From a virus, in IMG/VR virus record IMGVR_UViG_3300044941_000040, positions 1 through 25,889 of that record: a stretch of 25,889 bases of DNA. One strand, given 5' to 3'. The number at the start of each line of letters is the position of its first letter. The first letter of the stretch is position 1. The notes below the pieces were generated by a model, which was not told the DNA's origin, ran no database searches, and worked only from the letters and a program-made list of their open reading frames with translations. The position numbers and the translations under genes are program-made. Positions 1 through 22,569 of the stretch are shown here, one piece after another.

Positions 1-132
1 GTGGCTGGTAGGGTGGCTGGTAGGGTGGCTGGTAGGGTGGCTGGTAGGGTGGCTGGTAGGGTGGCTGGTAGGGTGGCTGGTAGGGTGGCTGGTAGGGTGG
101 CTGGTAGGGTGGCTGGTAGGGTGGCTGTTAGG
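1..132. repeat. 12-bp tandem array A (GTGGCTGGTAGG)
   Basis: Ten exact head-to-tail copies of GTGGCTGGTAGG fill 1-120, followed by one copy with a single change (GTGGCTGTTAGG) at 121-132. The array starts at base 1, so it is cut by the window edge and its true copy number is unknown. The plus strand carries closely spaced GG and GGG runs that could form G-quadruplexes. The 12-bp period keeps reading frames open, which produces meaningless long ORFs here. The array lies in the gene-free zone beyond the large terminase gene, where T7-like phages carry their right terminal region. Confidence 0.97.
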
Positions 133-166
133 AAAGGCGACAGATCACTTCTCTTGTGTGCGTTCT

Positions 167-256
167 GTGCGCTCCCCCGTGCGCTCCCCCGTGCGCTCCC
201 CCGTGCGCTCCCCCGTGCGCTCCCCCGTGCGCTCCCCCGTGCGCTCCCCCGTGCGC
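167..256. repeat. 12-bp tandem array B (GTGCGCTCCCCC)
   Basis: Seven exact copies of GTGCGCTCCCCC run from 167 to 250, with a partial eighth (GTGCGC) to 256. The C-rich part is complementary to the GGGGGAG of the neighbouring array C, so the two arrays could fold on each other in single strands. The same 12-mer occurs once more at 18,734-18,745 in the leader of the capsid gene. Confidence 0.97.
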
Positions 257-341
257 GCAACCGGGGGAGGCTGCGAGCGGGCAACCGGGGGAGGCTGCGA
301 GCGGGCAACCGGGGGAGGCTGCGAGCGGGCAACCGGGGGAG
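257..341. repeat. 24-bp tandem array C
   Basis: Three full copies of a 24-bp unit occupy 257-280, 281-304 and 305-328. The unit begins GCAACCGGGGGAGG and ends CTGCGAGCGG. A 13-base partial copy follows at 329-341. The unit is twice the 12-bp period of arrays A, B and D. It adjoins array B with no spacer and holds the complement (GGGGGAG) of that array's CTCCCCC. Confidence 0.96.
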
Positions 342-479
342 CCCCGAGGGGGGGAGCGGGCCGCGGCCGCCAGCGTGTAGCCACCTCGGATGAGCGCACT
401 GAACATTCCGACCTCTCCCCCAGGGTCCTCCCCAGGGTCCCCCCAGAACACCCCCCGCAGATCGACGAGGATCGCCGCT
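342..479. other. Gene-free stretch between arrays and hairpin
   Basis: I see no credible gene here. The sequence is rich in C runs on the plus strand (several CCCCAGGGTCC-like segments at 416-455) and has no Shine-Dalgarno plus start codon leading into a protein of ordinary composition on either strand. It joins the tandem arrays to the hairpin element at 480. Together with flanking DNA (1-808) it probably forms the terminal or concatemer-junction region of the phage genome, by comparison with T7; that assignment is inference. Confidence 0.6.
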
Positions 480-536
480 GAGTGGCCTCTCAGGTTTGTC
501 CGCTAGGGTAGCACCGGAGAGCACCAGAGGCCTCTC
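480..536 (-). promoter_or_regulatory. Conserved hairpin element, copy A
   Basis: The outer arms GAGTGGCCTCT (480-490) and AGAGGCCTCTC (526-536) are complementary except at one position. The inner arms TCCG (499-502) and CGGA (515-518) enclose a 12-base loop containing TAGGGTAG. The whole unit, including spacing between arms (46 bases from arm start to arm start) and the flanks CCGCT and TACGG, recurs at 2,931-2,987. As RNA from the minus strand it would be a long imperfect hairpin without a U tract. That looks more like an RNase III processing or RNA-stability site than an intrinsic terminator. The function is inferred. Confidence 0.7.
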
Positions 537-571
537 TACGGTCATCCTAGAGGCTTCCCGAGGGGGCGCCC

Positions 572-610
572 TAGGGAGCACCGTAGGGAGCACCGTAGGG
601 AGCACCGTAG
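572..610. repeat. 12-bp tandem array D (TAGGGAGCACCG)
   Basis: Three exact copies of TAGGGAGCACCG lie at 572-583, 584-595 and 596-607, followed by TAG. The unit resembles part of hairpin copy A (TAGGGTAGCACCGGAG at 504-519), so this short array may have arisen by expansion of that element. It shares the 12-bp period of arrays A and B. Confidence 0.93.
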
Positions 611-613
611 AAA

Positions 614-663
614 GGAGACCCATACCACAGCCTCATTGGTTAAGGATCATGGGGGAGGTCTCC
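614..663. repeat. Long imperfect inverted repeat
   Basis: GGAGACC (614-620) with CCCAT (619-623) pairs with ATGGG (649-653) and GGTCTCC (657-663). A three-base bulge (GGA) interrupts the right arm. The loop of about 25 bases is unusually A+T-rich for this genome (CCTCATTGGTTAAGGATC). A dyad around an A+T-rich core within a terminal region could be a protein-binding or replication-related site, but nothing more specific can be seen. Confidence 0.55.
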
Positions 664-753
664 GCCCTAGGTGGCAGCCTCCGAGGCTACCTTCGGAGCA
701 CCTCTAGGAGAGCCTCAGGAGCTACTCTAGGAGCTCCTTAGATACTACTATAG
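664..753. other. Palindrome-dense, CTAG-rich non-coding stretch
   Basis: No gene is visible. The stretch holds a small hairpin with arms CTCCGA and TCGGAG around 680-697, a perfect 10-bp palindrome AGGAGCTCCT at 729-738, and repeated CTCTAGGAG at about 702-710 and 725-733. CTAG tetramers are clustered: eight lie between 503 and 812. The neighbouring sequence ends in ACTATAGGGA at 747-756 on the plus strand. Confidence 0.5.
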
Positions 754-799
754 GGAATCTTTCTTCCTCATCCCTTCCAGGGATATGAAGCCAAACTAG
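754..799 (-). promoter_or_regulatory. Promoter-like element, terminal copy (phi-OR position)
   Basis: Read on the minus strand, 799 down to 777 is CTAGTTTGGCTTC, then A, then TATCCCTGG: a 23-bp core that matches 22,534-22,512 at 22 of 23 positions. Similarity continues downstream for about another 23 bases (purine-rich, ending GATTCC). The only other copy in the window precedes the structural gene block. A two-copy, 23-bp, same-orientation intergenic motif fits a promoter for a single-subunit phage RNA polymerase. Lying just after the large terminase and pointing at the genome end, it sits where T7 has phi-OR. The transcription start is not determined. Confidence 0.6.
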
Positions 800-808
800 G
801 AAACCGGC

Positions 809-2476
809 CTAGACGCTCACCCAGACCGGCCCCGTCGAGGCCTTTGATCCGGCCACCTCGTCCAGGAACTTCGAGAGCTCCCTGTCGAAGGCCTCCTGCT
901 CTAGCCTCCGCTCAATGTCCTGGTCCTCTGCCTCCATCTGCTCCGTCCAGTAGGCGACGGCGCCTGCGAGGGCATCGAGACGGTCATCGTGGTTCAGCGC
1001 CCCCTTCTCCCTAGTGATGTGCGTCATCTGCCAGAAGAGAGAGAACTCGGGGGCCTTCTCCGCGGCGTGGCCGTTGTAGTTCTGTGCATCAAGCTGGATG
1101 AGGGCCTCGTCGACAACCAGGCGGTGCTGGTTCATCACGGGCTCAAGGGTGTCGATGATCCTGGCCTCTTTCTGCTTGGAGGAGCGGACCTCCTCCGTCG
1201 TGCAGGGGTAGACCTTCGACAGGACCGGGTCGAGGAGGGCCTTGAACATGCCGTCCCCGAAGTTGCTCTCGATCCGGATCGCCTTGACGCCGAGGCGCTT
1301 GGCGTGCCGGGCGATGGCCTCCAGGTTCTCCGGGGAGTAGCCCCCGAGCATCCCCCGGCAATCCAGGAGGAAGAGCTTGGAGTGCAGCTTGGCGACGACC
1401 GCCCAGGCCAACTCGTCCTTGCCCCGACCGGCGGGGTCGATGAACATCACGCAGCCTTGGTAGGGCGCCCATGTGTCAGAAACATGGAAGGGTCGGAACC
1501 AGCGGTCTCCCTTGAAGCCCGGGAGAGGGACGTCCACGAGGGCAAGCTGGGGGCTCGCCCCCCAGGCCATCGTGACGGGGCCTTGTTGGGGGTCCAGGGG
1601 CATGACGATCAGGTCGCGCAGCTTGAGCGGGAACCTCTCGGCGTCCGATAGCTGCGTGTCGAGCATGAACTGGAGGGCGAAGCCGGAGCGGCCGTAGGAG
1701 AGCTCGCGCTCCTGGAGCTCCTCCTCGGGGAACCTGGAGGGCTCCACCGGCGAGCCGGGGACTGCCCCTTCGTAGACCCTCTCGATGATCCAGGGGGCTA
1801 AGCGGTCGCCATACTTGGCCATCTGCTCCTCGGTCGGGAACCTCGCAGGCCAGATGCGGACCTCGTAGCCGCGGGGCTCGAGCTTCGTGGTGTAGATGCT
1901 CTCCTGGGTCTGCGCCGTGCCCAAGTAGACCACGGCACCGCCGGGCTTGAGCACCGCGTCGAACTCCTTCACGAGCTCCCCGAGCTTCTCCCTCTTGCCG
2001 ACCGTGTCGGAGTTCGAGGGGACCTCAATGTCGTCCGCGATGATCGTGTCGGCGCGGCTGCCGGTGATCTGGCCGGTGATGCCGATGGACTTCACCGAGG
2101 GGCTCTGGTCGATCTTCGCGGGTCCCACGTCGAAGGCCTCCAGGGAGGTCCGCTGGCCCTCTCGGGGGCGGAGGTGCTGGAGGATTGGGACTTCCTCGAT
2201 CAGGCGCTTGACGAACAGCGAGAAGGCGTTCGCCCGGCTCTCCGAGGCGGAGACCACCAGGACCTTGTGGTCTGGGTCCTTGAACAGCAGCCAGCAGGCA
2301 TAGGCCGCCGTGATGTAGCTCTTCCCCACGCCACGGAACGCCATGATGATCGAGCGCCGCGGGCCGTTCTGGAGATAGCGCCCAATGTCGAACTGCACCG
2401 GGGTCGGATCGGGCAGCGATAGGTGCTTCCAGATGACGAAGAGGAAGTTGCGGAAGTCTGCGCTCAGGGGGTCCAT
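809..2476 (-). CDS. terL: Terminase large subunit (T7 gp19-like)
   Basis: ATPase and nuclease that drives DNA into the prohead and cuts concatemers. The 555-aa product compares with 586 aa for T7 gp19. Visible features are a Walker A-like loop FRGVGKS at residues 47-53, a Walker B segment TIIADDIE at 144-151, and a C-terminal nuclease domain starting near FIDPAGRGKDE with later acidic motifs (IESNFGDGMF, NHDDRLDAL). I chose the ATG at 2,476 because it overlaps the endolysin stop as TGATG and starts with the family-like MDPLSADFRNF. An upstream in-frame ATG at 2,569 would lie inside the endolysin gene. It is the last gene before the terminal repeat region, as gene 19 is in T7. Confidence 0.96.
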   Translation of the reverse strand: MDPLSADFRNFLFVIWKHLSLPDPTPVQFDIGRYLQNGPRRSIIMAFRGVGKSYITAAYACWLLFKDPDHKVLVVSASESRANAFSLFVKRLIEEVPILQHLRPREGQRTSLEAFDVGPAKIDQSPSVKSIGITGQITGSRADTIIADDIEVPSNSDTVGKREKLGELVKEFDAVLKPGGAVVYLGTAQTQESIYTTKLEPRGYEVRIWPARFPTEEQMAKYGDRLAPWIIERVYEGAVPGSPVEPSRFPEEELQERELSYGRSGFALQFMLDTQLSDAERFPLKLRDLIVMPLDPQQGPVTMAWGASPQLALVDVPLPGFKGDRWFRPFHVSDTWAPYQGCVMFIDPAGRGKDELAWAVVAKLHSKLFLLDCRGMLGGYSPENLEAIARHAKRLGVKAIRIESNFGDGMFKALLDPVLSKVYPCTTEEVRSSKQKEARIIDTLEPVMNQHRLVVDEALIQLDAQNYNGHAAEKAPEFSLFWQMTHITREKGALNHDDRLDALAGAVAYWTEQMEAEDQDIERRLEQEAFDRELSKFLDEVAGSKASTGPVWVSV

Positions 2477-2889
2477 CAGTAGCCGAACACCACTTGGGGC
2501 AGGTTCAGGAGGTCCCTCGCATCGCAGTGGATGAACCCCTTGCCGTCCGGGGGGACACCCACGGACCACCCGAGGTTGAGCGCAGTGCGAACCAGGGTAG
2601 CGGCCTCCTGCCGGTCACGGACGCGGACGTCTACGGCGAGCGTTCCCTTCTGGCCGGGGCGGGCCGGGGCGTCGCAGATGTGGAGGGAGGAGGCAGCCCC
2701 TCCGACGCGCCGGTTGTGAGCCTCGCTCCGGCAGGCCGAGGTCAGCACCATCGGACGCCCGAGGGCTTCACGAAGGTTGTCTAGCCTCTCTGCGAACCCG
2801 GGGTGCAACCGGAGGAGGCCGCTTCCGCGGCACGCCAACTCGGCCCGGGTGAACCATCGGCAAGGGGAGTCGTGAGGGTCGGTGGACAT
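2476..2889 (-). CDS. Endolysin, peptidase M15-type
   Basis: Probable peptidoglycan endopeptidase that degrades the cell wall at lysis. The 137-aa protein has the layout of the Peptidase_M15_3 family: an N-terminal FTRAELACRGSG segment, LDNLREALGRPMVLTSACRS at about 36-54, then the zinc-ligand region SSLH (H70), AVDV (D87) and GFIHCDAR (H121). Family members usually have only about seven residues between the first His and Asp; here about ten extra residues separate them. The ATG at 2,889 is chosen because GGAG lies five bases upstream. An in-frame ATG further upstream would run into the hairpin at 2,931. There is no signal peptide, so a holin should be needed for export. Confidence 0.88.
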   Translation of the reverse strand: MSTDPHDSPCRWFTRAELACRGSGLLRLHPGFAERLDNLREALGRPMVLTSACRSEAHNRRVGGAASSLHICDAPARPGQKGTLAVDVRVRDRQEAATLVRTALNLGWSVGVPPDGKGFIHCDARDLLNLPQVVFGY

Positions 2890-2930
2890 GTGTCTCCAGA
2901 CACGCTTGCAGATTACTGACGATGGCCGCT

Positions 2931-2987
2931 GAGTGGCCTCTTGAGGAGCCCCGGTAGGGTAGTAGCGGGGAACACCAGAGGCCACTC
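2931..2987 (-). promoter_or_regulatory. Conserved hairpin element, copy B (R18.5-like position)
   Basis: Perfect 11-bp outer arms GAGTGGCCTCT (2,931-2,941) and AGAGGCCACTC (2,977-2,987) surround inner arms CCCCG (2,949-2,953) and CGGGG (2,966-2,970) with a 12-base loop holding TAGGGTAG. It fills the only sizeable gap in this block, between the stop of the small terminase gene and the ribosome-binding site of the endolysin gene. No U tract follows. T7 has an RNase III site (R18.5) at the comparable spot after gene 18, so mRNA processing is the most likely role. The second copy at 480-536 differs in the inner stem by a compensatory change. Confidence 0.75.
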
Positions 2988-2997
2988 TACGGGCTTC

Positions 2998-3246
2998 CTA
3001 TCGCTTCCTCGCGAGAGGGACGACGTCGTCGGTGAAGGGTAGGTTCTCGACCACGGAGCTCTGGAGCTTCCGCAGGGGGTCTCCCTCCCCGCGATCCGTG
3101 ATGTCGACCGTGATGTTGTTGTCCTTGAGGAGCTTCACGGCGACGGCCATCTCGGCGGCCGTGGCTTCCCCGCTCTCGATCCGGGCGAGGAGAGCCTTGA
3201 CGGTCTTCTCGTGGAGCTCCTGGTGGAGTTTCCTGAGGGTGCCCAT
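2998..3246 (-). CDS. terS: Terminase small subunit (T7 gp18-like)
   Basis: Small DNA-maturation subunit that recognises phage DNA and works with the large terminase. The 82-aa product (T7 gp18: 89 aa) has an N-terminal helical region LHEKTVKALLARIESGEA, then TAAEMAVAVKLLKDNNIT, and an acidic tail ENLPFTDDVVPL, the usual pattern of the T7 maturase A family. The ATG at 3,246 overlaps the stop of the preceding gene (TGATG). Start codons further upstream would extend through that gene. The endolysin gene separates it from the large subunit gene, with a hairpin in the intervening gap. Confidence 0.85.
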   Translation of the reverse strand: MGTLRKLHQELHEKTVKALLARIESGEATAAEMAVAVKLLKDNNITVDITDRGEGDPLRKLQSSVVENLPFTDDVVPLARKR

Positions 3247-3443
3247 CAGTGGCGTCCGAGGGTGTGGTTGACGAGCGCCGTCAGGGCTGAGCCTAAGAGG
3301 CCAGCAAAGCCAGCGAAGGACCACGAGCGGAACTCCAAGGTGCGGAGCCGCGTCTCGTGGTCCTTCTTGTCCTCTCGGACCTCTGACAGGTGGGACTCGA
3401 TCCGGGTCAGCCGGTCGAGGACCTCACGTTGAAACGGGTCCAT
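3246..3443 (-). CDS. Holin-like / XhlA-like membrane protein
   Basis: A 65-aa protein with an N-terminal amphipathic coiled coil (about residues 3-38: LDRLTRIESHLSEV, DHETRLRTLEF) and a single C-terminal hydrophobic segment (about 43-60: FAGFAGLLGSALTALV), ending in a short basic tail. This resembles haemolysin XhlA-type and small phage holin-associated proteins. Placed beside the terminase and endolysin genes, where T7 has its holin (17.5), it is the best holin candidate in the window. The one-membrane-segment topology also allows a spanin-like or anti-holin role. Its start follows the upstream stop as TGAGATG, with a weak Shine-Dalgarno site. Confidence 0.6.
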   Translation of the reverse strand: MDPFQREVLDRLTRIESHLSEVREDKKDHETRLRTLEFRSWSFAGFAGLLGSALTALVNHTLGRH

Positions 3444-3444
3444 C

Positions 3445-3819
3445 TCACGGGGCCGCTAGGATTTCGAGGTCAAGGTCCCCGGCCTGGATCGTGATACTCC
3501 CGCCCGCGGTGATGTTCACCGGGGCCTCGAGAGCACCGACCCACACGCAGTTGCCTCCAGACGCGGCGTCGAAGAGAGCCCCGTGCGTGAAGGTGCCGAG
3601 GGTCGCCGTGAACCCATCGAAGACGATGGCGTTGGCGTTGGTGGCCGTGCGGCCGGAGATCGTGAGGGCGCCCACGGCGCGGCGAGCGTATCCGCTCCCG
3701 GAGGCCTCTCCGGTCAGCCCGGAAGGGGTCTGACCTGTTCCAAGACCCAGGAAGAGGCCGTTGCCAGCGACAGGGACCAGCGCTAGACCGGCGCCATAGG
3801 TGGTCAGGTTGCTGCTCAT
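3445..3819 (-). CDS. Small beta-rich tail/appendage protein
   Basis: A 124-aa Gly/Ala/Thr-rich protein without membrane segments. The segment GEASGSGYARRAVGALTIS, followed by VFDGFTATLGTFTHGALFD, GGNCVWVGALEAPVNITAGG and a final TIQAGDLDLEIL, resembles a widespread phage family of small beta-structured proteins often encoded among tail-fibre genes. The family's function is not established as far as I know. A virion-surface or fibre-associated role is inferred from its position at the end of the adhesin cassette. The ATG follows AAGGA at short spacing, six bases after the esterase stop. Confidence 0.6.
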   Translation of the reverse strand: MSSNLTTYGAGLALVPVAGNGLFLGLGTGQTPSGLTGEASGSGYARRAVGALTISGRTATNANAIVFDGFTATLGTFTHGALFDAASGGNCVWVGALEAPVNITAGGSITIQAGDLDLEILAAP

Positions 3820-3825
3820 GTTTCC

Positions 3826-5010
3826 TTACTGCTCGATGGGGACGCCGTTCTCAACGACGTTCCCGTGGACGACCCCGGTGACCGTGACGACGTCTTCGCA
3901 GGCCTCGGTGATGGTCGTCAGATTGCCGGTTGGGTCGGAGTAAAGCAGGTTTCTAAGGGTCCCCACCGGCGGCTCGTTGGTGACGCTGTAGGAGCTCTCC
4001 CTGGCCCCGGCCGCCCATGCCAGACGCGACAGGGCCGTCAGCGCGCCAGAGAAGGTGACGTCCACAGTGGCGCGCCTCAGGGTGGCGACCTGGGAGTTGT
4101 CCACGGCGCCGATACCGGTCGCCGTTCCGCCGCCTGAGATGGAGAACCAGGCGGAGGACCCAAGGCCCCCGATGATCCGGATCGGGTGCCCGCCCGGCGA
4201 AGAGATGAACGCGCGCACCGTGGTCGGCCCCACCTGCACAGCCCGGTAGACCACCGGGGCGTCCGGCATGGAGGTGGCGACCCCGTTCACACCGGCGACC
4301 CTATGGGCAAGGGTCTCGGCAATCCTGTAGGCCGTGCTCCGGTAGGGGTGGGCTCCGTCCACCGCGTTCCACGCCGTCGCCGTGAGGGCCGGGAGGACGT
4401 AGGGGAGCGGAGCAAAGCCCTCCAGCGGCTCCTGCCCCGAGACCGCGCGGAAGACCCGGCGTGCCCACGAGAGGTTGTTGGCGCCGGAGGAGCGACTGCC
4501 GTTCACCACGGGCTGGATTACGAACAACCCAAAGGAGCTGGCGCAGTCGGCGTAGACCCGCTCATAGAAGGCCTTGATACTGTTTCGGTAGACGGTGTTG
4601 TTGAAGAGGGGGTCTCCCGTATCCTGCGTGTTGCAGTAGTGGACGTAGACGCCGAGGCGCCCCGCTCCTCCGCGGCCAGTGATCCACAGCCGGAGCGGCT
4701 CGTAGGCGTTCCCCGGCGTCTGGTTGTAGGCGTTCCACCACCGGTTTCCGCCCGTGCTCTCGTTGAAGATCATCAGGGGTGAGCCGGCGATGTAGGTGTA
4801 GGAGGCCGGGGGGTTGGCCTGTCCCCCCGCGGCGCCTGAGACGGTCACCGAAACGCCCGGCATGAGGGTGTTCAGGCGGTTTGTCAGGCGGGTGCCCGCC
4901 GGGGGGGCGCTGCTGAGGGCAGGCTCGGACGTCTCGCCGCCGCTGTTTAGGAACATGGCGCACTGAGACTGGCCCCCCATGATGACCTGGACGTTCGAGA
5001 AGAGCGGCAT
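3826..5010 (-). CDS. SGNH-type esterase in tail adhesin cassette
   Basis: A 394-aa protein whose first third resembles SGNH/GDSL hydrolases. VIMGGQSQCAMF (residues 9-20) contains the likely nucleophile Ser15 in a GQS block, and AVDGAHPY (216-223) supplies a D-x-x-H pair (Asp218, His221) typical of the acid/base block. HYCNTQDTGD near 124-133 may replace the middle block seen in sialate O-acetylesterases. The region after about 245 is beta-rich. Such enzymes in phage tails deacetylate surface polysaccharide; substrate and virion location are inferred. The start overlaps the upstream stop as TGATG, so its translation is probably coupled to the lectin-like gene before it. Confidence 0.72.
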   Translation of the reverse strand: MPLFSNVQVIMGGQSQCAMFLNSGGETSEPALSSAPPAGTRLTNRLNTLMPGVSVTVSGAAGGQANPPASYTYIAGSPLMIFNESTGGNRWWNAYNQTPGNAYEPLRLWITGRGGAGRLGVYVHYCNTQDTGDPLFNNTVYRNSIKAFYERVYADCASSFGLFVIQPVVNGSRSSGANNLSWARRVFRAVSGQEPLEGFAPLPYVLPALTATAWNAVDGAHPYRSTAYRIAETLAHRVAGVNGVATSMPDAPVVYRAVQVGPTTVRAFISSPGGHPIRIIGGLGSSAWFSISGGGTATGIGAVDNSQVATLRRATVDVTFSGALTALSRLAWAAGARESSYSVTNEPPVGTLRNLLYSDPTGNLTTITEACEDVVTVTGVVHGNVVENGVPIEQ

Positions 5011-5942
5011 CAGGGAACCCGTGAGAGGAGCCGGTCAAGGTTGGCTTCGATCCCCGCGTTGGTGGTGGGGGGAATGGCGTCAAACCCGTAGGAGTGAAGG
5101 TCGAAGTTGCCGAGGCCCTCGGTGCTCGCGCTGTTGTTCCATCGGACCCGGTTGATGGTCGCTTCCGCGCCAGTCCAGGTGCCCGTCAGGGAGAGGGCCG
5201 AGGTGTTAAGCTGCTGCATCGTGGCGTAGGTGCCCCCGGGCTTCGTCTTGAGGAACAGCCTCGAGATGTTGTCGGAGGTCCCAGGCGTCGTGCGGTCGTC
5301 GTTGATAACGTGCGCTAGGGCGACCCACTCGTTCGCTGCGGGGCGCGTCCCGAGGGTGGCCTGCTGCGCCGAGGTGTTTGTCCCCCGGGCGACAAACCAC
5401 TGGGTGGCCGTCAGGATGACGATATAGCGGAGGCGGTCGCGGTTCGTATACGTGCTGGAGTTGACGCCGACTTGGAAGAGCACCGTGTTCCACGTTGGGA
5501 GGGTCGGGAACCGGACGAGCATGTAGGAGACGCCCAGGGCGTTCGGCGTGCTCGTGTATCTGGAGGCGAGGTTGGAGATCGACAGCCACTTCCCATTCGT
5601 GGTGTCGTTGCTCGCCGTTGACCCCGTAATGCTCACGACGTCGGAGGCATCGACGTGGGAGGGACGGAAGGACTCCGTGCTCTGGCTGACCGTTCCGGAG
5701 ATGCCCTGGCCGCTCGTCCAGTTGGACAGGGGGCCGTTGACCGTGGTGATCGTCGGATTGGCGTCACCACGCACGTCGATCAGGCCGTTGTTGTAAAGGA
5801 GCTCGAAGTTCGCGAGCCCTCCACCGGCCACGGCGAGGCCCGACTTTCCGACGAACGAGATGCTCGTGGTCTGTCCGGACGGAGGCGGGAGAGCTCCGGA
5901 GGGGAGCCGAGCCCGCACGCCCAGGAGGTGACTGCCGGGCAT
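5010..5942 (-). CDS. Putative tail adhesin, possibly lectin-like
   Basis: A 310-aa protein, Ser/Thr/Asn-rich, with alternating hydrophobic and polar residues typical of beta-sandwich phage appendages. Segments such as NNGLIDVRGD, WLSISNLASRYTSTPNALGV, VSYMLVRFPTLPTWNTVLFQ and INRVRWNNSA look like concanavalin A/LamG-type folds, but I cannot identify a family firmly. There is no signal peptide or membrane segment. It lies between a fibre with a T7 gp17-type N-terminus and an SGNH esterase, overlapping both by TGATG. It is therefore probably part of the same receptor-binding assembly. Confidence 0.55.
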   Translation of the reverse strand: MPGSHLLGVRARLPSGALPPPSGQTTSISFVGKSGLAVAGGGLANFELLYNNGLIDVRGDANPTITTVNGPLSNWTSGQGISGTVSQSTESFRPSHVDASDVVSITGSTASNDTTNGKWLSISNLASRYTSTPNALGVSYMLVRFPTLPTWNTVLFQVGVNSSTYTNRDRLRYIVILTATQWFVARGTNTSAQQATLGTRPAANEWVALAHVINDDRTTPGTSDNISRLFLKTKPGGTYATMQQLNTSALSLTGTWTGAEATINRVRWNNSASTEGLGNFDLHSYGFDAIPPTTNAGIEANLDRLLSRVP

Positions 5943-6628
5943 CAGGCTGCCGTGTCGCCAGAGAGTGTCCAGGTAGCAGCGTTCCCACCCGCGTTCGCGG
6001 TCACTAGGACGGACACCAGAGCGTGCTGCCCGGCCGTCCGTGTGTGCCCGCTACGGTTCACGAGTGTTGCACCGGCACCAGCGACGAAGGTGATCTGGCC
6101 GGTTCCCGCTTGGCCGAAGGTAAGCGTGGTGCCAACCGGGAGGTTGCTCGGGAGGGTCACCGTCACGCCGGTCGAGGCGGTGCAGCGGAAGAACCCGCCG
6201 GTCTGTCCAGCCGATGCCGTGATGGCCGTCGCTGCCGTCTCGGTCACCGAAGTCAGGTAGTTGACGGCGGCGCTTCCCGCGAAGTTCCCGGTGAAGCCGC
6301 CCCCGCCCCCCGCGCTGATGAGCGGCGGGTTGCCAGCCTCGGCGGAGAGGAAAGCGGCCTGCCGTGCCAGGGCCGCAGCGTTCGCGGGCCGGTTCAGGCC
6401 TCCCTCGACGAAGTTCGTGATCGGCGCCGTGGGAGTCACCCGCTGGATCACCACCTGGGTTCCGGCCGGGGGAGTGTCGCCGAGCTCGATTAGGTTCGCG
6501 GCGACCCACCGCCACTCGGTGACGAGAGCGCCGCCGACCGTCACAAAGACGTGGTTGGGAGAGAGATAGTCGAAGTTCAGGGCGAACAGGCGATTGACGC
6601 CGTCCGCCGTAGCGGTAACTCGGGACAT
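5942..6628 (-). CDS. Tail fibre-like protein with gp17-type N-terminus (second copy)
   Basis: A 228-aa protein in two parts. Residues about 1-95 match the T7 tail-fibre N-terminal (virion-anchoring) domain pattern: LFALNFDYLSPNHVFVTVGG, EWRWVAANLIEL, GTQVVIQRVTPTAPI and a LARQAAFLSAEA helix. After a Gly-rich linker (about 105-112) comes a Thr/Gly/Val-rich beta domain with FFRCTASTGVTVTLP and GQITFVAGAGATL. It is a shorter paralogue of the fibre at 7,018-8,004 and may anchor the adhesins encoded downstream. The ATG at 6,628 has a strong AAGGAG site. T7 has only one such protein, so the duplication suggests a branched or composite receptor-binding apparatus. Confidence 0.75.
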   Translation of the reverse strand: MSRVTATADGVNRLFALNFDYLSPNHVFVTVGGALVTEWRWVAANLIELGDTPPAGTQVVIQRVTPTAPITNFVEGGLNRPANAAALARQAAFLSAEAGNPPLISAGGGGGFTGNFAGSAAVNYLTSVTETAATAITASAGQTGGFFRCTASTGVTVTLPSNLPVGTTLTFGQAGTGQITFVAGAGATLVNRSGHTRTAGQHALVSVLVTANAGGNAATWTLSGDTAA

Positions 6629-8057: not shown

Positions 8058-11000
8058 TCACTGTGAGAGGCGCCGAATGGCGTCCAGAAGGCCAGTCGGG
8101 CGGTTGTCCCGGGGAGTAGATGGCCCCCGGCCCTCCATTATGCTCTCGGTTAGGGCTCGGCGGGCCATCAACGCCTGCTCGACGGCGGGGAACTCCCTGA
8201 ATAGCCCCTCCAGGGCCGTCTGGCGGTATTCCTGGATGACGGCCTGGGTTTCCCGGAGGCGTGGCCCGTCGATATCGACCGTCCCATCGCCCAGGGCCTT
8301 GTATCGGTCGCTCGTGATGAGGTCCGTGAGGGCCTCCCGGAGGGTCTTACCGGCGATCCTCGTCTCTCCGATGAGCTCCTGGTAGCGCCCGTAGGCCGTC
8401 CCCCTGCCATCCGCCCTCGGGAACTCGCGAAGGTTGATCGCGTTCTCGAGGAGGTGAGGCGGCGGGAGGAAGGCGTTCTTGTGGATGTCCATCAGGCGGA
8501 GAAGCTCCTTCGTCACGACGTCTGCGCCGGGGATGCGGGACTCCCGCACCGGGCTGGCGACATGCCAGAACTCGGTCGGCAGGAAGGAAGCCCCGACACC
8601 GAAGGCCTGCGGCACCGGGACAGGCTCGCCGAGCACCGTGAACCTGGGGTCCAGGGTCTCGACAGCGGCCGTCCGGGCCTTCATGGCGTCGAGGATGGTG
8701 TTTGCCTCGCGCATGTAGGGGTTCCCGGTAAGGAACGTCTCCAGGTCCCGGTGGGCGCCGGGGACGAAACCGGCCGCCACGCCCTGCACGAACTGCTGGG
8801 CATCCCCCCGGTAGAGGGAGGCGACCATGTTCAGGAGGCCCTGGGCGTAGGACTTGTCCGCGATAGCCTTGGCGACCCCGAGGGCCACCATCAGGGCAAG
8901 CTGCCCGTAGCTCTCTTCCACCCGGAGGTCCCCCTCGGCCCGATCCATGAGCTCCTTCGCCGTGGCGAGGACCATGAAGGGATACGAGTATGGGTCGAGG
9001 CGGTCGATGCGGACGAACCGCTCGGTGCCATCAGGCTCCGTGAAGCGGACGCTGTAGCCGCCGACGCCAAAGCTGTTCATCGCCCGGTTCGTGTTTGGGT
9101 CCCTCGTGCCGCCCCCGGTGATATCGCCGGAGAGCACGAAGTAGGCAGCCGAGGACAGCAACGCGGTAGCCGTGGCGATCCTCGCTCCCGCTCGCCTGGC
9201 CGTGTCGCCGCCCGCCGCGAACTCCTGCCAGAGGCGCGCGCGCTCCTTAAAGAGGATGGGGCCGGAGATGGCGGACACAGGGTTGTAGACGGCGAACTCC
9301 GACAGGATGTTCGAGGGCGTGCGCACGAATGGGATGACGTAGCGGAGCGGGGGGAACTGGTTCTTCCCCCGATCCAGCCAGTTGCCAAAGCGGCCGACCC
9401 AGTCCGTCCCGAAGTCCTGCGTGAAGGTCGCCACGCGGGCGGCCTGGAGGCCCTCCTGGTCGAGTGCCCTCCCGTCCACGGGGTCGAAGGCAGCCGACAA
9501 GCGGCCCTGAACGTAGGTTCGGAGGTTCTGCCCGGAGAGTCCCATATCGACACCTTCGCGCGCGGCGTTGGCTTGCACCGTCGCACGCACCGTCAGGCGC
9601 TTGAAGAACTCGTCCTCGAAAGCCATGACCCGGCTGTTAAGCCTGACGAGCTCCCCGAGGCCATTCAGAAGGGCATCCCCAAGGAGCCCCTCGTCGGTGC
9701 CAAAGGTCGAAGCGCTTAAGGCCCGCACGTTGCGCTCGCCCTGAAAGGCGCGGCCGGGGTCTGTTACACCGTCAGCCCTGCGAAACGCCTCCGCGGCATG
9801 GACGACCGCATCCCCCAGGCCCATCATCATCCCGGAGTAGTAGTTCCAGCCCTCTCGGGCAGCCATGAGCGGGCGGCCGTCGAGAAGCCTGACGAAAACG
9901 CGCTCGGCCGGTTCTCCGATGCCCGTGCGGAAGGCGTTCGTGGTCACGTTCAGCACATGCGTCTGGAGTCCCGAGAGGATACCCGCCTGCCAAGTGTTCG
10001 ACGCGGCGTCCCATATGCTGTTCGGGTTCTCGAAGGTCTTCTGCACGGCCTTGCGGAGAGGGCCGGGACCCGACCGCTGCACCGTGCGGACGCGGTAGGC
10101 GAGCTCGACGATGAACCGCTCGCCGCCCTCGATTGAGGACTCCCACACACTGCCCTCGGTTGCCCGGAAGCCGATGCTCTCGGTGAACGTCCGGGTGTTG
10201 GTCGTCCGGGTCGACTGGCTGTCGGTGGTGCGGGTCCGCTGCGCCGGGTTGGTCTCCGGCATGCGCGCCGCGGCGCCCACGTCCGGAGCCCTTGAGGCGG
10301 CTCTGGAGGTGATCCCACGGAGGATCGAGAGGTTCTGACCCATCTGCGACCGCATCCCCAGGGTCAGGGGGTCAACGTTCGCCAGCACGTTGAGGACCGA
10401 GAGGAAGCGGCGGTAGGTCTCGTTCGGGTCGGCAGTGGAGCGCCCGGTTGAGATGTTGACGATCTCATCCGCGAGTTCCGTGGCGCGACGCTGGAGGTTG
10501 ACCGTAAGGGCGGTGAAGGCTGCGGCCCTACGGCCCACCTTCTCGGCACTCTGGAGCTCGGCTTCCATGGCATGGCGAAGCATCCGCGCCTGCCCTGCGT
10601 CGCCCGTGGCGATCAGCGCAGCAGCGTCGGCCCACTCCTCCGCCTGCTCCGTCAGGTCCCGGAGGTTGACCTTGGCCACCCGGGCGTTCCTGTAGCCAGC
10701 CTCGAAGGAGGTCTCGAGCGTCCGCACGAGGGCCAAAACGTCGTCCGGCGTCTCCATGCGGTCGAGGTTTCGCCAGATGATCCCGGCGTCCGGGTCCCTG
10801 CTGAGGGCCTCCGGATCGAACCGGGCGCGCTGCCACGCGGCGGCGATCCGCGCGGCCTCTTCGTCGGTGACCTCCACGGCGCTCCCGCGGATGCGCTGCG
10901 GGCCGAGGGGGGCGGTCACTTCGGGGGTGGGGGCAACGCCGGGCTCACCGGTCGTCGTCGTTGTCGACCGCGTGGTATCGGTCGTGGTCGTCCGGTCGGT

Positions 11001-11876
11001 CGCCTTGCGGGAAGCCTCGAGCTCCACCGTCCGGAAGTCCGTCTGGCTCTCCGACACGCGGAGCCACCGGTCCTCCTGGACGCGCAACGAGAGCGTTTCG
11101 GTGGTGATCGTGGTGGTGCTCTGCGGCATGGCACCGGCCGCGGCTTTGGCGTTTTCCTGGGCCTGCACCATGTCGCCGGAGCGCGCCGCGCGCAGTGCCT
11201 TCACGCTGTAGAACAGCCCCTCCGCGATGCCTGCCAAGCCACCGTTCTCGAGGGCTGCCTTGAAGCGGGCCTCGGCAACGCTGTCCTCTGGGGACGCCGA
11301 GAGGAAGTCGAGCACGGGGTTCTGGAGGGCGGGCACTTCCTGGAGGAGGTTCGAGAGGCGGGCCTCGTAGGGGTCGAAGGCGGTGCCCCCGGCGAGAAAC
11401 TCTCGCGCCAAGACGTTCGGGACGACCCCGATGGCACGGCTGCTGGCCCCCACGGCGTTCAGCGCCTTGCCCCACAGGCCGAAGCCCGTGAGGAACTGGG
11501 CGATGGCCTCGATCCCCTTGCCGGTGTAGCTCTCCGGCTCGGGCATGAGGTCGCGCACCCACGCGCCACCACGGCGGACGAGGTTGGGACCCTGGGCGAC
11601 CGTGCGGAGGACGGAGGCAGCGGTCTCGCTGGTCCCCTCGACGAGGTTGGCACCCCCCTCCAGGAGGTCCTGGGCAGAGGCGCCAAGCTCCGAGATCGCC
11701 CCGGCTGCACCCCGGGCGGCGGCCGGGATTGCCCCGGTCACCCCTCGGGCAACATCCGTGACGACGGCGTTCAGGCCCTCGCTGGCCGTTGTCGGCGTCG
11801 GCTTCCCGCCATCGGGCGACAGGGCCTCGACCGCTTGGTCAAGCTCGGGGGAGAACCCCGAGAGCATACTGCTCAT
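8058..11876 (-). CDS. Large internal virion protein (T7 gp16-like position)
   Basis: A 1,272-aa protein (T7 gp16: 1,318 aa), probably ejected to help form the DNA conduit across the cell envelope. I see no lytic transglycosylase motif at the N-terminus, which T7 gp16 has. The N-terminal part is Ala/Gly-rich and helical. Thr-rich linkers at about 293-309 and 546-566 separate regions. Residues about 630-770 hold SGLQTHVLNVTTNAF and AFEDEFFKRLTVRA, a pattern I associate with large phage ejection proteins, and a later hydrophobic stretch reads ATALLSSAAYFVLSG. The start overlaps the gp15-like stop as ATGA. Assignment rests mainly on size and position. Confidence 0.8.
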   Translation of the reverse strand: MSSMLSGFSPELDQAVEALSPDGGKPTPTTASEGLNAVVTDVARGVTGAIPAAARGAAGAISELGASAQDLLEGGANLVEGTSETAASVLRTVAQGPNLVRRGGAWVRDLMPEPESYTGKGIEAIAQFLTGFGLWGKALNAVGASSRAIGVVPNVLAREFLAGGTAFDPYEARLSNLLQEVPALQNPVLDFLSASPEDSVAEARFKAALENGGLAGIAEGLFYSVKALRAARSGDMVQAQENAKAAAGAMPQSTTTITTETLSLRVQEDRWLRVSESQTDFRTVELEASRKATDRTTTTDTTRSTTTTTGEPGVAPTPEVTAPLGPQRIRGSAVEVTDEEAARIAAAWQRARFDPEALSRDPDAGIIWRNLDRMETPDDVLALVRTLETSFEAGYRNARVAKVNLRDLTEQAEEWADAAALIATGDAGQARMLRHAMEAELQSAEKVGRRAAAFTALTVNLQRRATELADEIVNISTGRSTADPNETYRRFLSVLNVLANVDPLTLGMRSQMGQNLSILRGITSRAASRAPDVGAAARMPETNPAQRTRTTDSQSTRTTNTRTFTESIGFRATEGSVWESSIEGGERFIVELAYRVRTVQRSGPGPLRKAVQKTFENPNSIWDAASNTWQAGILSGLQTHVLNVTTNAFRTGIGEPAERVFVRLLDGRPLMAAREGWNYYSGMMMGLGDAVVHAAEAFRRADGVTDPGRAFQGERNVRALSASTFGTDEGLLGDALLNGLGELVRLNSRVMAFEDEFFKRLTVRATVQANAAREGVDMGLSGQNLRTYVQGRLSAAFDPVDGRALDQEGLQAARVATFTQDFGTDWVGRFGNWLDRGKNQFPPLRYVIPFVRTPSNILSEFAVYNPVSAISGPILFKERARLWQEFAAGGDTARRAGARIATATALLSSAAYFVLSGDITGGGTRDPNTNRAMNSFGVGGYSVRFTEPDGTERFVRIDRLDPYSYPFMVLATAKELMDRAEGDLRVEESYGQLALMVALGVAKAIADKSYAQGLLNMVASLYRGDAQQFVQGVAAGFVPGAHRDLETFLTGNPYMREANTILDAMKARTAAVETLDPRFTVLGEPVPVPQAFGVGASFLPTEFWHVASPVRESRIPGADVVTKELLRLMDIHKNAFLPPPHLLENAINLREFPRADGRGTAYGRYQELIGETRIAGKTLREALTDLITSDRYKALGDGTVDIDGPRLRETQAVIQEYRQTALEGLFREFPAVEQALMARRALTESIMEGRGPSTPRDNRPTGLLDAIRRLSQ

Positions 11877-17656: not shown

Positions 17657-17699
17657 AAAAAAGCCCCCTCCCCACCCAGGAAGGGCGAAGGAGGGGGCT
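17657..17699 (-). terminator. Intrinsic terminator after capsid gene (T-phi-like)
   Basis: Read on the minus strand: a perfect 10-bp stem AGCCCCCTCC (17,699-17,690) and GGAGGGGGCT (17,671-17,662), an 18-base intervening sequence, and a run of six T at 17,662-17,657. It lies about 20 bases after the capsid stop codon and ends 13 bases before the tail tubular A start. T7 has its T-phi terminator at exactly this place, where partial termination gives high capsid and lower tail-gene expression. Confidence 0.93.
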
Positions 17700-17719
17700 C
17701 AGGAGGGGTCACTCAGCGA

Positions 17720-20469: not shown

Positions 20470-22043
20470 TGTAGCATCTCCATGGGGGCGCCGCCTGCCT
20501 GAGTGGCGAGCGCCTCAACGATTTTGGGGGCGGACTCGTTGATGAGCCCGTTGGCCTGGGCCTGCTGCTGCTCCTGGGCGATCTCTTCGTCCGTCCGTAG
20601 GAGGCCTGGGGTGGACACGCCACGGGCAGCCGCGAGCCGCCGGAGGACTTCCTTAGCGTTCACACGCTGGAGAACATCGGGACCGAGCACGGTTGCGGCG
20701 TCGCTGAGGAGTTGCAGGAGGTTGGAATAGTCACTGCCACGCCCGATGGCGGCCACGCCTGCGATGATCGTCGGGCGCACCGGGCGACCTTCGAGAGAGG
20801 GGATCGCGCGCTTCTTCGTCAGGCGGTCGAGGATGATCCCGGCCAGAGGAATCAGAAGCTCCTGCGTCAGGAGCGAGTAGACGCCGCCGAGGGTTGCGTC
20901 GAGGTCCTGCGCCATCCGCCGGATTTCCTCGGCGGTCACGCGCTCGGCCTGCCTCTGGATCGAGGCCGTCATCAGGAAAGCGAGCTCAAGGGCCTTCTGG
21001 ATTTCCTGCTCGGCCTGGAAGGCGATGCGGAGGTCTGCGAACTTCTCTAGCTGTAGGACCGACACGTCGTCCTTGTTGCCCACGCCGATGCCCAGGTTCT
21101 TCATGTCCGCGAGCATCTTCGGCCGGGTGGTCCCGTTCGGGCGCACCAGGAAGATGACCTTCGCGGCCGCTGCCGATGCCTCGACGATGGCCTGCCGGAG
21201 GCCCTCCAGGGAGCGTAGGTCCCCGAGATACTCTTCGACATAGGACCGGCCAAAGCTCTCGCCGGAGACCCGAACCATGCGCAGAGGGAGCCACGGCAGC
21301 TTGGCCGCTGGGTAGAACCCATCGCTCTTCGGGACGAGGCTGCCGTTCTGGATTTCCTGCCGAACCGAGAAGCGGTCGTTCGGCCCGCGCCGGACCCAGG
21401 TGTAGACCGGGACGCTCTTCTGTGGGTTCTCCTCGTAGCCCTGCTTCTCTTCCTTCGTGAGAAGCTCCCGAACCTCGGCCGGGAGGGAAGCGTAGGAGAA
21501 CTCCTCCTTCACGACAATCTCGAGGAGATTGCCGGAGGGGTCGCGGAGGACGACATACTGGTCGAGCCTGAACAGGCGCAGCGGCTTGTTCATCGGCCAG
21601 AACAGCAGGGTGTTGCCCGAGACGATCAGTTGCTTGAGGGCCTCGAAGAGGGTCACCCCCAGGTGGTTCGTCTGAACCATCTTGTGGGCTTCCATCTCGA
21701 TCATCCCGAGCGCCTGCTCCACCGCGCCGCGAGGCTCGTCTTCTGCCTGCTCCAACTCCAGGAGCGCCTGGCCTTCCACCTGGAGGCGGAAGAAGGGCAT
21801 CTCCGGCGGGAGGAGAGCGAGAAGGAGCTTGCTCGCAAGGGAGTTGACGCCACGGGCGCCGACCGACTGCCACGTCTCACGGAGGCTCGAGCCCTGGGTG
21901 TGCCCCGTGGGGGGCATCAGGCTCGGGATCGTGAGCTTGGCGCATTCTCGGGCGCGGGCCAGGACGGCCTCTCGCTCGTTCGACAGGGCGGCGTAGCGCC
22001 CCGCCGCGGTCTTCGTGGGGAGCTCCTGAGGTGCCTTCGCCAT
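20466..22043 (-). CDS. Portal / head-tail connector protein (T7 gp8-like)
   Basis: Dodecameric ring at the packaging vertex through which DNA enters and leaves. The 525-aa product is close to T7 gp8 (536 aa). Typical segments are RYAALSNEREAVLARARECA then TIPSLMPP near the N-terminus, GSSLRETWQSVGARGVNSLA followed by KLLLALLPPEMPFF, and in the C-terminal half AFLMTASIQRQAERVTAEEI followed by RRMAQDLDATLGGVYSLL. The C-terminus is Gln/Ala-rich. The start codon is one base after the stop of the upstream gene (TGA C ATG). Confidence 0.96.
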   Translation of the reverse strand: MAKAPQELPTKTAAGRYAALSNEREAVLARARECAKLTIPSLMPPTGHTQGSSLRETWQSVGARGVNSLASKLLLALLPPEMPFFRLQVEGQALLELEQAEDEPRGAVEQALGMIEMEAHKMVQTNHLGVTLFEALKQLIVSGNTLLFWPMNKPLRLFRLDQYVVLRDPSGNLLEIVVKEEFSYASLPAEVRELLTKEEKQGYEENPQKSVPVYTWVRRGPNDRFSVRQEIQNGSLVPKSDGFYPAAKLPWLPLRMVRVSGESFGRSYVEEYLGDLRSLEGLRQAIVEASAAAAKVIFLVRPNGTTRPKMLADMKNLGIGVGNKDDVSVLQLEKFADLRIAFQAEQEIQKALELAFLMTASIQRQAERVTAEEIRRMAQDLDATLGGVYSLLTQELLIPLAGIILDRLTKKRAIPSLEGRPVRPTIIAGVAAIGRGSDYSNLLQLLSDAATVLGPDVLQRVNAKEVLRRLAAARGVSTPGLLRTDEEIAQEQQQAQANGLINESAPKIVEALATQAGGAPMEMLQ

Positions 22044-22266: not shown

Positions 22267-22484
22267 TCGTTGGTCTCCTCAGGCGAGGCCGCATTCGCAT
22301 CCGGTTCATCCCAAGCGAGCCGAGCGATCAGCATGTCGACCAGAGCGCGCTGCCCGGCGTAGTGCCAGATTTCGCGATCCGTCATGGTCAGGTCGGGACA
22401 CCGCTGGGGGACGGTTCGGTCGAGAAGGGCGATGAGGTCGGTGGACAGGGTGGGAAGCTGGTTTGGGAGGAGCGGGTTGAACAC
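22263..22484 (-). CDS. Conserved small hypothetical protein, first of structural block
   Basis: A 73-aa protein with GTG start at 22,484 and AGGA nine bases upstream. MFNPLLPNQLPTLSTDLIAL, then LDRTVPQRCPDLTMTDREIW and HYAGQRALVDMLIARLAW look like a compact helical protein; I associate this layout with a small conserved family upstream of podovirus portals, of unknown function. It is the first gene after the promoter-like element at 22,490-22,534. An internal ATG at 22,385 lacks a ribosome-binding site and would remove the conserved N-terminus. Confidence 0.7.
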   Translation of the reverse strand: MFNPLLPNQLPTLSTDLIALLDRTVPQRCPDLTMTDREIWHYAGQRALVDMLIARLAWDEPDANAASPEETNE

Positions 22485-22489
22485 CCTAA

Positions 22490-22534
22490 GGAATCCTTCT
22501 CTTCACTCTTCCCAGGGATACGAAGCCAAACTAG
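22490..22534 (-). promoter_or_regulatory. Promoter-like element upstream of structural genes
   Basis: On the minus strand 22,534-22,512 reads CTAGTTTGGCTTC, then G, then TATCCCTGG, identical to the terminal copy at 799-777 except for one base. The downstream flank is also related (GAAG-rich, ending GGATTCC). It lies in the gap between the dNMP kinase stop and the first structural gene, 6 bases before that gene's GTG. Length, strand bias and placement at a module boundary (like T7 phi-6.5) fit a phage RNA polymerase promoter. No bacterial -35/-10 pair is evident. A processing signal is the main alternative. Confidence 0.65.
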
Positions 22535-22551
22535 CTCCGTTCCCTGGGAAG
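22508..22551 (-). promoter_or_regulatory. Perfect 11-bp inverted repeat overlapping promoter-like element
   Basis: CTTCCCAGGGA (22,508-22,518) and TCCCTGGGAAG (22,541-22,551) are exact complements separated by 22 bases. The left arm overlaps the conserved promoter-like core; the right arm does not and is absent at the terminal copy. RNA read from upstream would fold into a hairpin with no U tract after it. It could be a processing site in read-through transcripts from the polymerase genes (T7 R6.5 is in a similar place) or an operator-like dyad. Confidence 0.65.
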
Positions 22552-22569
22552 CTACGCTACAGGAGGGTT

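Follow-up and report, generated by a model that had tools for sequence, protein, structure and literature searches.

Why should a phage carry the same long hairpin twice, once between the genes for its small terminase (terS) and endolysin and once in the zone beyond its large terminase gene (terL)? The question is raised by the full virus record IMGVR_UViG_3300044941_000040 (G000; 25,889 nucleotides, nt), referred to here as the window. It covers the late region of a T7-like podovirus, whose genes run on the minus strand: DNA polymerase, exonuclease, portal, capsid, tail genes, a small holin-like open reading frame (ORF), terS, endolysin and terL, and past terL a terminal zone rich in short repeats. 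We found that the two copies, A and B, are homologous and structurally constrained, that they stand at late-gene boundaries, and that they belong to a family with near-fixed length, conserved ends and covariation in relatives. The explanation that we prefer, with a confidence just short of even, is that both are members of a single family of long RNA hairpins at late-gene boundaries which act in structure-driven processing of late RNA, putatively of the RNase III type.

Copies A (457-549) and B (2908-3000) align without gaps and in register at a spacing of 2451 nt (expectation value, E, 3e-15 within the record), and they are 78% identical over 83 nt; a gapped alignment covers 113 nt (E 3e-17). 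Their parts are as follows.

2916-3000, minus strand: hairpin copy B, which reaches from the stop codon of TerS (2998-3000) into the gap between terS and endolysin; fold z-score -4.5
2931-2941, minus strand: 3' arm of the copy B outer stem, RNA AGAGGCCACTC; 11-bp stem, fully paired
2977-2987, minus strand: 5' arm of the copy B outer stem, RNA GAGTGGCCTCT; 11-bp stem, fully paired
2957-2962, minus strand: copy B apical hexaloop CUACCC, identical in both copies and also present in Paadamvirus and other hairpins
465-550, minus strand: hairpin copy A, about 260 nt past terL, with a junction-like motif 56 nt further on; fold z-score -1.8
480-490, minus strand: 3' arm of the copy A outer stem, RNA AGAGGCCACTC; 10 of 11 pairs, one A.A mismatch
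526-536, minus strand: 5' arm of the copy A outer stem, RNA GAGAGGCCTCT; 10 of 11 pairs, one A.A mismatch
506-511, minus strand: copy A apical hexaloop CUACCC, identical in both copies

On the transcribed (minus) strand both copies adopt a common fold, with a CCGU/GCGG base, an A.A step, the 11-bp stem and an internal loop, above which four (A) or five (B) inner pairs lead to a tip that closes to the CUACCC hexaloop. The alignment and the like folds bear out the original prediction of a duplicated hairpin with one architecture, one copy lying between terS and endolysin in the manner of T7 R18.5 and the other in the terminal zone, although some of its measures need correction. The 11-bp outer stem is perfect in B but interrupted by the mismatch in A; the arm distance of 46 bases holds as a start-to-start spacing, while 35 nt actually lie between the arms; and the supposed 12-base loop closes further to the hexaloop through a U-A pair and an A-U (B) or G.U (A) pair. 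The loop core is unchanged between the copies, as had been stated, and CTACCCTA occurs in both hairpin loops and nowhere else in the window. A short array, CCGTAGGGAGCA, at positions 578-612 resembles the tip of copy A. Rfam gave no match up to E 1 in positions 1-6000 of the window, and on the relatives nothing at gathering threshold except one tRNA; literature searches returned no description of this hairpin element.

Selection on the structure had been proposed from an inner-stem pair that differs between the copies with pairing kept. The change is true, but it is not proof: 1 of the 22 pairs is changed on both sides, and 241 of 500 shuffles do as well, so this argument was dropped. The placement of the differences is a better sign of constraint. 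Of the 50 positions that are paired or in the loop 5 differ, as against 9 of the 17 remaining ones in the hairpin (p=6e-4), which supports a selected structure.

Relatives supply the stronger family evidence through R2, a covariance model made from nine junction hairpins (83 nt) of the L253 clade, with no window sequence included. Run on the entire window with filters off, it ranked the two copies, each on both strands, as its top four matches: copy B reached 33.1 bits (E 4.5e-7) on the plus strand, antisense to the genes, and 12.1 bits on the minus strand, and copy A (467-550, minus strand) was the second-best locus with 16.2 bits (E 0.018). Calibration of the model was short, and the control scan weighs more than the exact E-values; it returned nothing better than E 0.28 in 100 other T7-type loci (794 kb). 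Outside its training set R2 matched L278, L211, the Paadamvirus gap hairpins, L255 and, more weakly, L288. Among whole genomes it found one copy in RHEph01 and none in T7, LUZ100 or BB8, so the family defined by sequence covers less than the class of hairpins defined by their position after terS. The top-scoring strand was the coding one in L278 and the Paadamviruses and the opposite one in window copy B, L211 and L255. In L255 the hairpin (9777-9855, antisense to the genes) is surrounded by small ORFs in the stretch that separates the T7-like genes for primase and DNA polymerase, a place at which T7 has a further RNase III site, R4.7. A Paadamvirus model, R1, also ranked copy B first, but with E 0.66 it is no evidence by itself.

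Members of the family measure 83-85 nt (83 in the R2 training set, 85 in window copy B and 84 in copy A). In the alignment of the junction clade (A6) the basal pairs are near-invariant in sequence and the middle stem covaries, both partners having changed in 9 of 30 pairs; the covariation score was 0.265 against 0.166 in shuffles, a value reached by none of 500. A scan of IMG/VR that allowed total lengths of 68-98 nt found six contigs, four of them with exactly 83 nt. Two of these six phages have a second, weaker 83-nt copy at 1.8-2.2 kb from the first, and the phage of L321 also has an integrase-like gene.

6147-6229 of L320 (record 21646-21728 of G006): second copy
4537-4619 of L321 (record 11036-11118 of G005): second copy

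Members of the family follow terS, stand at the junction or lie elsewhere, and both orientations occur. A palindromic repeat of the REP or MITE kind that is mobile or readily copied, settling between genes with perhaps little function for the phage, would suit the conserved ends, the near-fixed length, the patchy distribution over several genomic places in both orientations, and the presence of two copies in the window and likewise in two other phages. We nevertheless judge it quite unlikely: many lineages keep a hairpin after terS even without sequence similarity, and the junction place is occupied in nearly all L253-clade members with a readable junction.

The exact 16-mer GAGGCCACTCAGCGGC had seven unrelated matches in IMG/VR, attributable to chance, and the CCGTAGAGNGGCCTCTGG scan gave seven contigs, about the number expected by chance, with one group of related hairpins away from packaging genes and one unrelated match. 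In L260-L266 a long hairpin beside dCMP-deaminase-like and thyX-like genes has CCGTAGAGTGGCCTCTGG in common with the 5' arm of copy B, probably by chance. A reading of the conserved arm as a phage promoter was rejected, the arm recurring only at the two copies.

The place of copy B is filled in many relatives. A strong hairpin occupies the gap that follows terS, or the stretch leading straight into terL, in T7, LUZ100, BB8, RHEph01, Lo5R7ANS, Pasto, YIMV22061 and many contigs; over 64 non-redundant stretches after terS, some of which (in Studiervirinae) include coding sequence, the median fold z-score was -1.9, and 20 stretches were below -3. Most of these hairpins are mutually unlike in sequence. 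In T7 this gap is the place of the RNase III site R18.5, between genes 18 and 18.5. The Paadamvirus hairpins have 6 of 35 pairs changed on both sides, with a covariation score equalled by 5 of 500 shuffles. On the preferred explanation, copy B descends from the hairpin that many relatives have after terS, and copy A most likely arose from B by duplication, set after terL just before the junction. Copy B is likely the older of the two, because its position is filled in many lineages and that of copy A is not; the alignment of A and B also extends about 19 nt into the end of terS, which weakly suggests that A was copied from B. No sequence duplicates around terL in the other loci were comparable to the pair in the window.

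Copy A lies close to a stretch related to a motif of the zone past terL. This motif, AAAATC[TC]GA, has 61 occurrences in 262 kb of sequence beyond terL and 3 in 1.30 Mb of other sequence. T7 has it at 39761, so that its start precedes the right terminal repeat (39778) by 17 nt; the corresponding distance in LUZ100, measured to the annotated repeat, is 29 nt. Judged by this distribution, it marks the concatemer junction of T7-like phages. The window has an equivalent:

385-414, minus strand: concatemer-junction-like motif GGTCGGAATGTTCAGTGCGCTCATCCGAG, with GGAATGTT at 402-409; compare GGTCGGAATGTTTGGTAGAAATTTCTGAG in Lo5R7ANS

Copy A ends 56 nt upstream of this motif, by whose similarity the cut site of the window is provisionally placed. 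In general the 110 nt upstream of the motif fold with z-scores below -2 in 31% of cases, against 6% downstream. A scan with GGCTACTACCCTAGCC located the module 60-90 nt before terL and also, in L211, L242, L253 and L257, 500-690 nt after terL on the same strand; in L253 and L242, where the terS-terL stretch could be read, terS abuts terL and there is no gap hairpin. Several of the IMG/VR contigs are fragments. Nearly all L253-clade members with a readable junction have a hairpin shortly upstream of AAAAATCTGA, with a weak fold in L297. These hairpins are 83 nt each (84 in L278, 80 in L276), and their ends are CTAGGAAG... and ...CTTCCTA or near variants, while loops and middle stems diverge. 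Directly after terL, L253, L242 and L257 carry a gene that by eye resembles SpeD (S-adenosylmethionine decarboxylase type).

Such a position invites a reading at the DNA level, in which the conserved ends, about eight helical turns apart, form a maturation or packaging signal close to where the concatemer is cut. The phage protein binding these ends could be terminase, the phage RNA polymerase or a nuclease of the junction, and the copy after terS would be a second or ancestral site. The L253-clade hairpins do lie close upstream of AAAAATCTGA, which precedes the terminal repeat in T7 and LUZ100, as copy A does with its equivalent of that motif; near-invariant ends, an almost fixed length and function in either orientation would also be in keeping with a bound DNA site. 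In T3 and T7, packaging recognition takes place near the genome ends and is linked to RNA polymerase paused at the junction (PMC3276506). We consider this reading, along with its candidate binders, unlikely but credible, as the element of RHEph01 lies solely after terS, far from the genome end, the covariation indicates a stem, and T7 itself has no family member.

Under the RNA-processing explanation that we prefer, RNase III, the host's endonuclease for double-stranded RNA, or an equivalent enzyme would act on the stems of both copies. Cuts at A and B would free endolysin and terL as one mRNA with both ends at like hairpins, and this cutting would precede the entry of transcription into the terminal repeat; in its minimum version, the endolysin-terL mRNA would simply be cut free of terS on one side and of the terminal repeat on the other. 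A quasi-palindrome yields a double-stranded RNA stem in whichever direction it is transcribed, so the orientation flips fit an enzyme that reads double-stranded RNA, and RNase III, named in the original prediction as the simple reading, is supported as such in a putative sense. The R2 matches to B and A, the strong hairpins after terS in relatives, the covariation, the placement of the A/B differences and the R4.7-like place of the L255 hairpin likewise count in favour of this explanation.

Several observations weigh on the other side. RNase III needs neither the conserved ends nor the near-fixed length of the hairpins, and for this reason an end-binding protein, at the DNA or RNA level, and a mobile palindrome were kept as alternatives. 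The second 83-nt copies in the two other phages have kept ends and length with poor internal pairing. Template switching between the arms of quasi-palindromes can mimic covariation without selection. Finally, in LUZ100, the one relative for which mapped RNA ends were compared, none of the 22 ends, and so no 3' end, falls in the gap after terS, though the hairpin there is not an R2 match. The recurrence of the hairpin by packaging genes and beside the cut point suggests a shared signal for RNA processing or DNA maturation, of which we found no description. It is possible, though doubtful, that this undescribed quasi-palindrome of distant T7-like phages (83-85 nt, conserved ends, covarying middle) is a mobile or duplicating signal for maturation or coupled to packaging, acting as DNA, RNA or both; if so, one of its sites would follow terS, the other would directly precede the concatemer junction, and it could move or be duplicated between them.

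The loop had been proposed as a recognised element. CUAMCC hexaloops (M = A or C) form the tips in the Paadamviruses, in the uncultured L107, L108, L112, L117, L119 and L162, in L120 and in both window copies, and the exact CUACCC loop is common to A, B, RHEph01, TRX32-1, L117, L119, L211, L253 and L257. Among hairpins with six-base loops, CUAMCC made up 5 of 188 in the 150 nt before terL and 13 of 18498 elsewhere (p=8e-7; by lineage p=5e-4), in loci fetched by TerL only and with one window match inside the endolysin gene excluded from the 5; an earlier census that required 7 strict pairs was too strict to detect the motif. A strand-specific RNA signal in which a phage or host factor binds the CUACCC hexaloop would draw on this enrichment in the terS-terL gap and on the identical loop in several lineages. 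It is improbable, however, given that the loop differs within the L253 clade (GGUAGG or GGUAAG in L280, L281, L284, L285, L286 and L292, other sequences in L273, L275, L276, L278, L287 and L289) and that R2 members occur in both orientations. Between L281 and L282 the arms agree at 52 of 67 positions, while the tip fits the reverse complement at 13 of 16 and the direct sequence at only 10 of 16. A strictly recognised loop is therefore not borne out: within one clade it is replaced, and in one sub-group apparently inverted, with the arms kept, and members face both ways relative to transcription. Across phages, no coupling was found between the loop and each phage's own terminal repeat array.

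In L186, L189, L199 and L207, contigs without a TerL match, CCTAGG-CTAACC-CCTAGG hairpins are followed by T-runs, and the hexaloop is thus also present in ordinary terminators. That the window copies are themselves intrinsic transcription terminators is very improbable. Some relatives do have a U-run 3' of the inner hairpin (L027, L096, L115, L102), and ProddE is annotated with a terminator at that place, but neither window copy has a U-run directly after its GC-rich hairpin, and the ordinary terminator of the window sits elsewhere, 3' of the capsid gene (17660-17710).

The genes around the two copies were assigned as follows.

2998-3243, minus strand: terS, small terminase (phrog_891, E 1.5e-11)
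2476-2889, minus strand: endolysin (phrog_894, E 7e-16)
809-2476, minus strand: terL, large terminase (phrog_38, E 2.5e-118)

No close relative of the record was found, the top TerL identity being 58%; a TerL scan of genome contigs returned Pseudomonas-borne relatives only, at 49-50% identity. The left end of the record (1-360) carries tandem arrays of GTGGCTGGTAGG (about 11 copies), GTGCGCTCCCCC (7 copies) and a 24-nt unit, CAACCGGGGGAGGCTGCGAGCGGG, and probably falls inside the terminal repeat. Directly past terL, a T7-promoter-like TACTACTATAGGGA on the plus strand (742-758) points against the late genes. A strong hairpin, CTTCCCAGGGA...TCCCTGGGAAG (22475-22554), lies between the regions of exonuclease and portal and is possibly another RNA-processing site.

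To our knowledge, T7 RNA processing sites have so far been treated as structures without family-wide sequence identity. A hairpin that a covariance model can trace from one phage clade to another, at two packaging or cut-site places, offers a handle on a possible coupling between late-mRNA processing and concatemer maturation, and a way to recognise genome ends in virus contigs that are incomplete; the AAAAATCTGA junction motif, being conserved, already serves by itself for locating terminal repeats. Among the closest known systems is T7 R18.5: copy B likewise follows terS and precedes the next late gene as a long, imperfect and structurally constrained RNA hairpin in the late transcript, whereas T7 has a shorter stem and no R2 match, and the window has a second copy after terL. 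Copy A, directly upstream of its junction-like motif, recalls the T7/T3 concatemer junction and right-end packaging region, but copy B lies 2.45 kb away within the late operon, and terminase is at most a candidate binder. With REP and MITE palindromic repeats the family shares conserved ends, near-fixed length, both orientations and a dispersed distribution; it differs in having one or two copies per genome, many of them near packaging genes. CCTAGGG- and CTAGGA-like words in the terminal zone and near the hairpins resemble the T7-type SRL/SRR terminal short repeats, from which the family is set apart by the lack of any loop-to-own-array coupling across phages.

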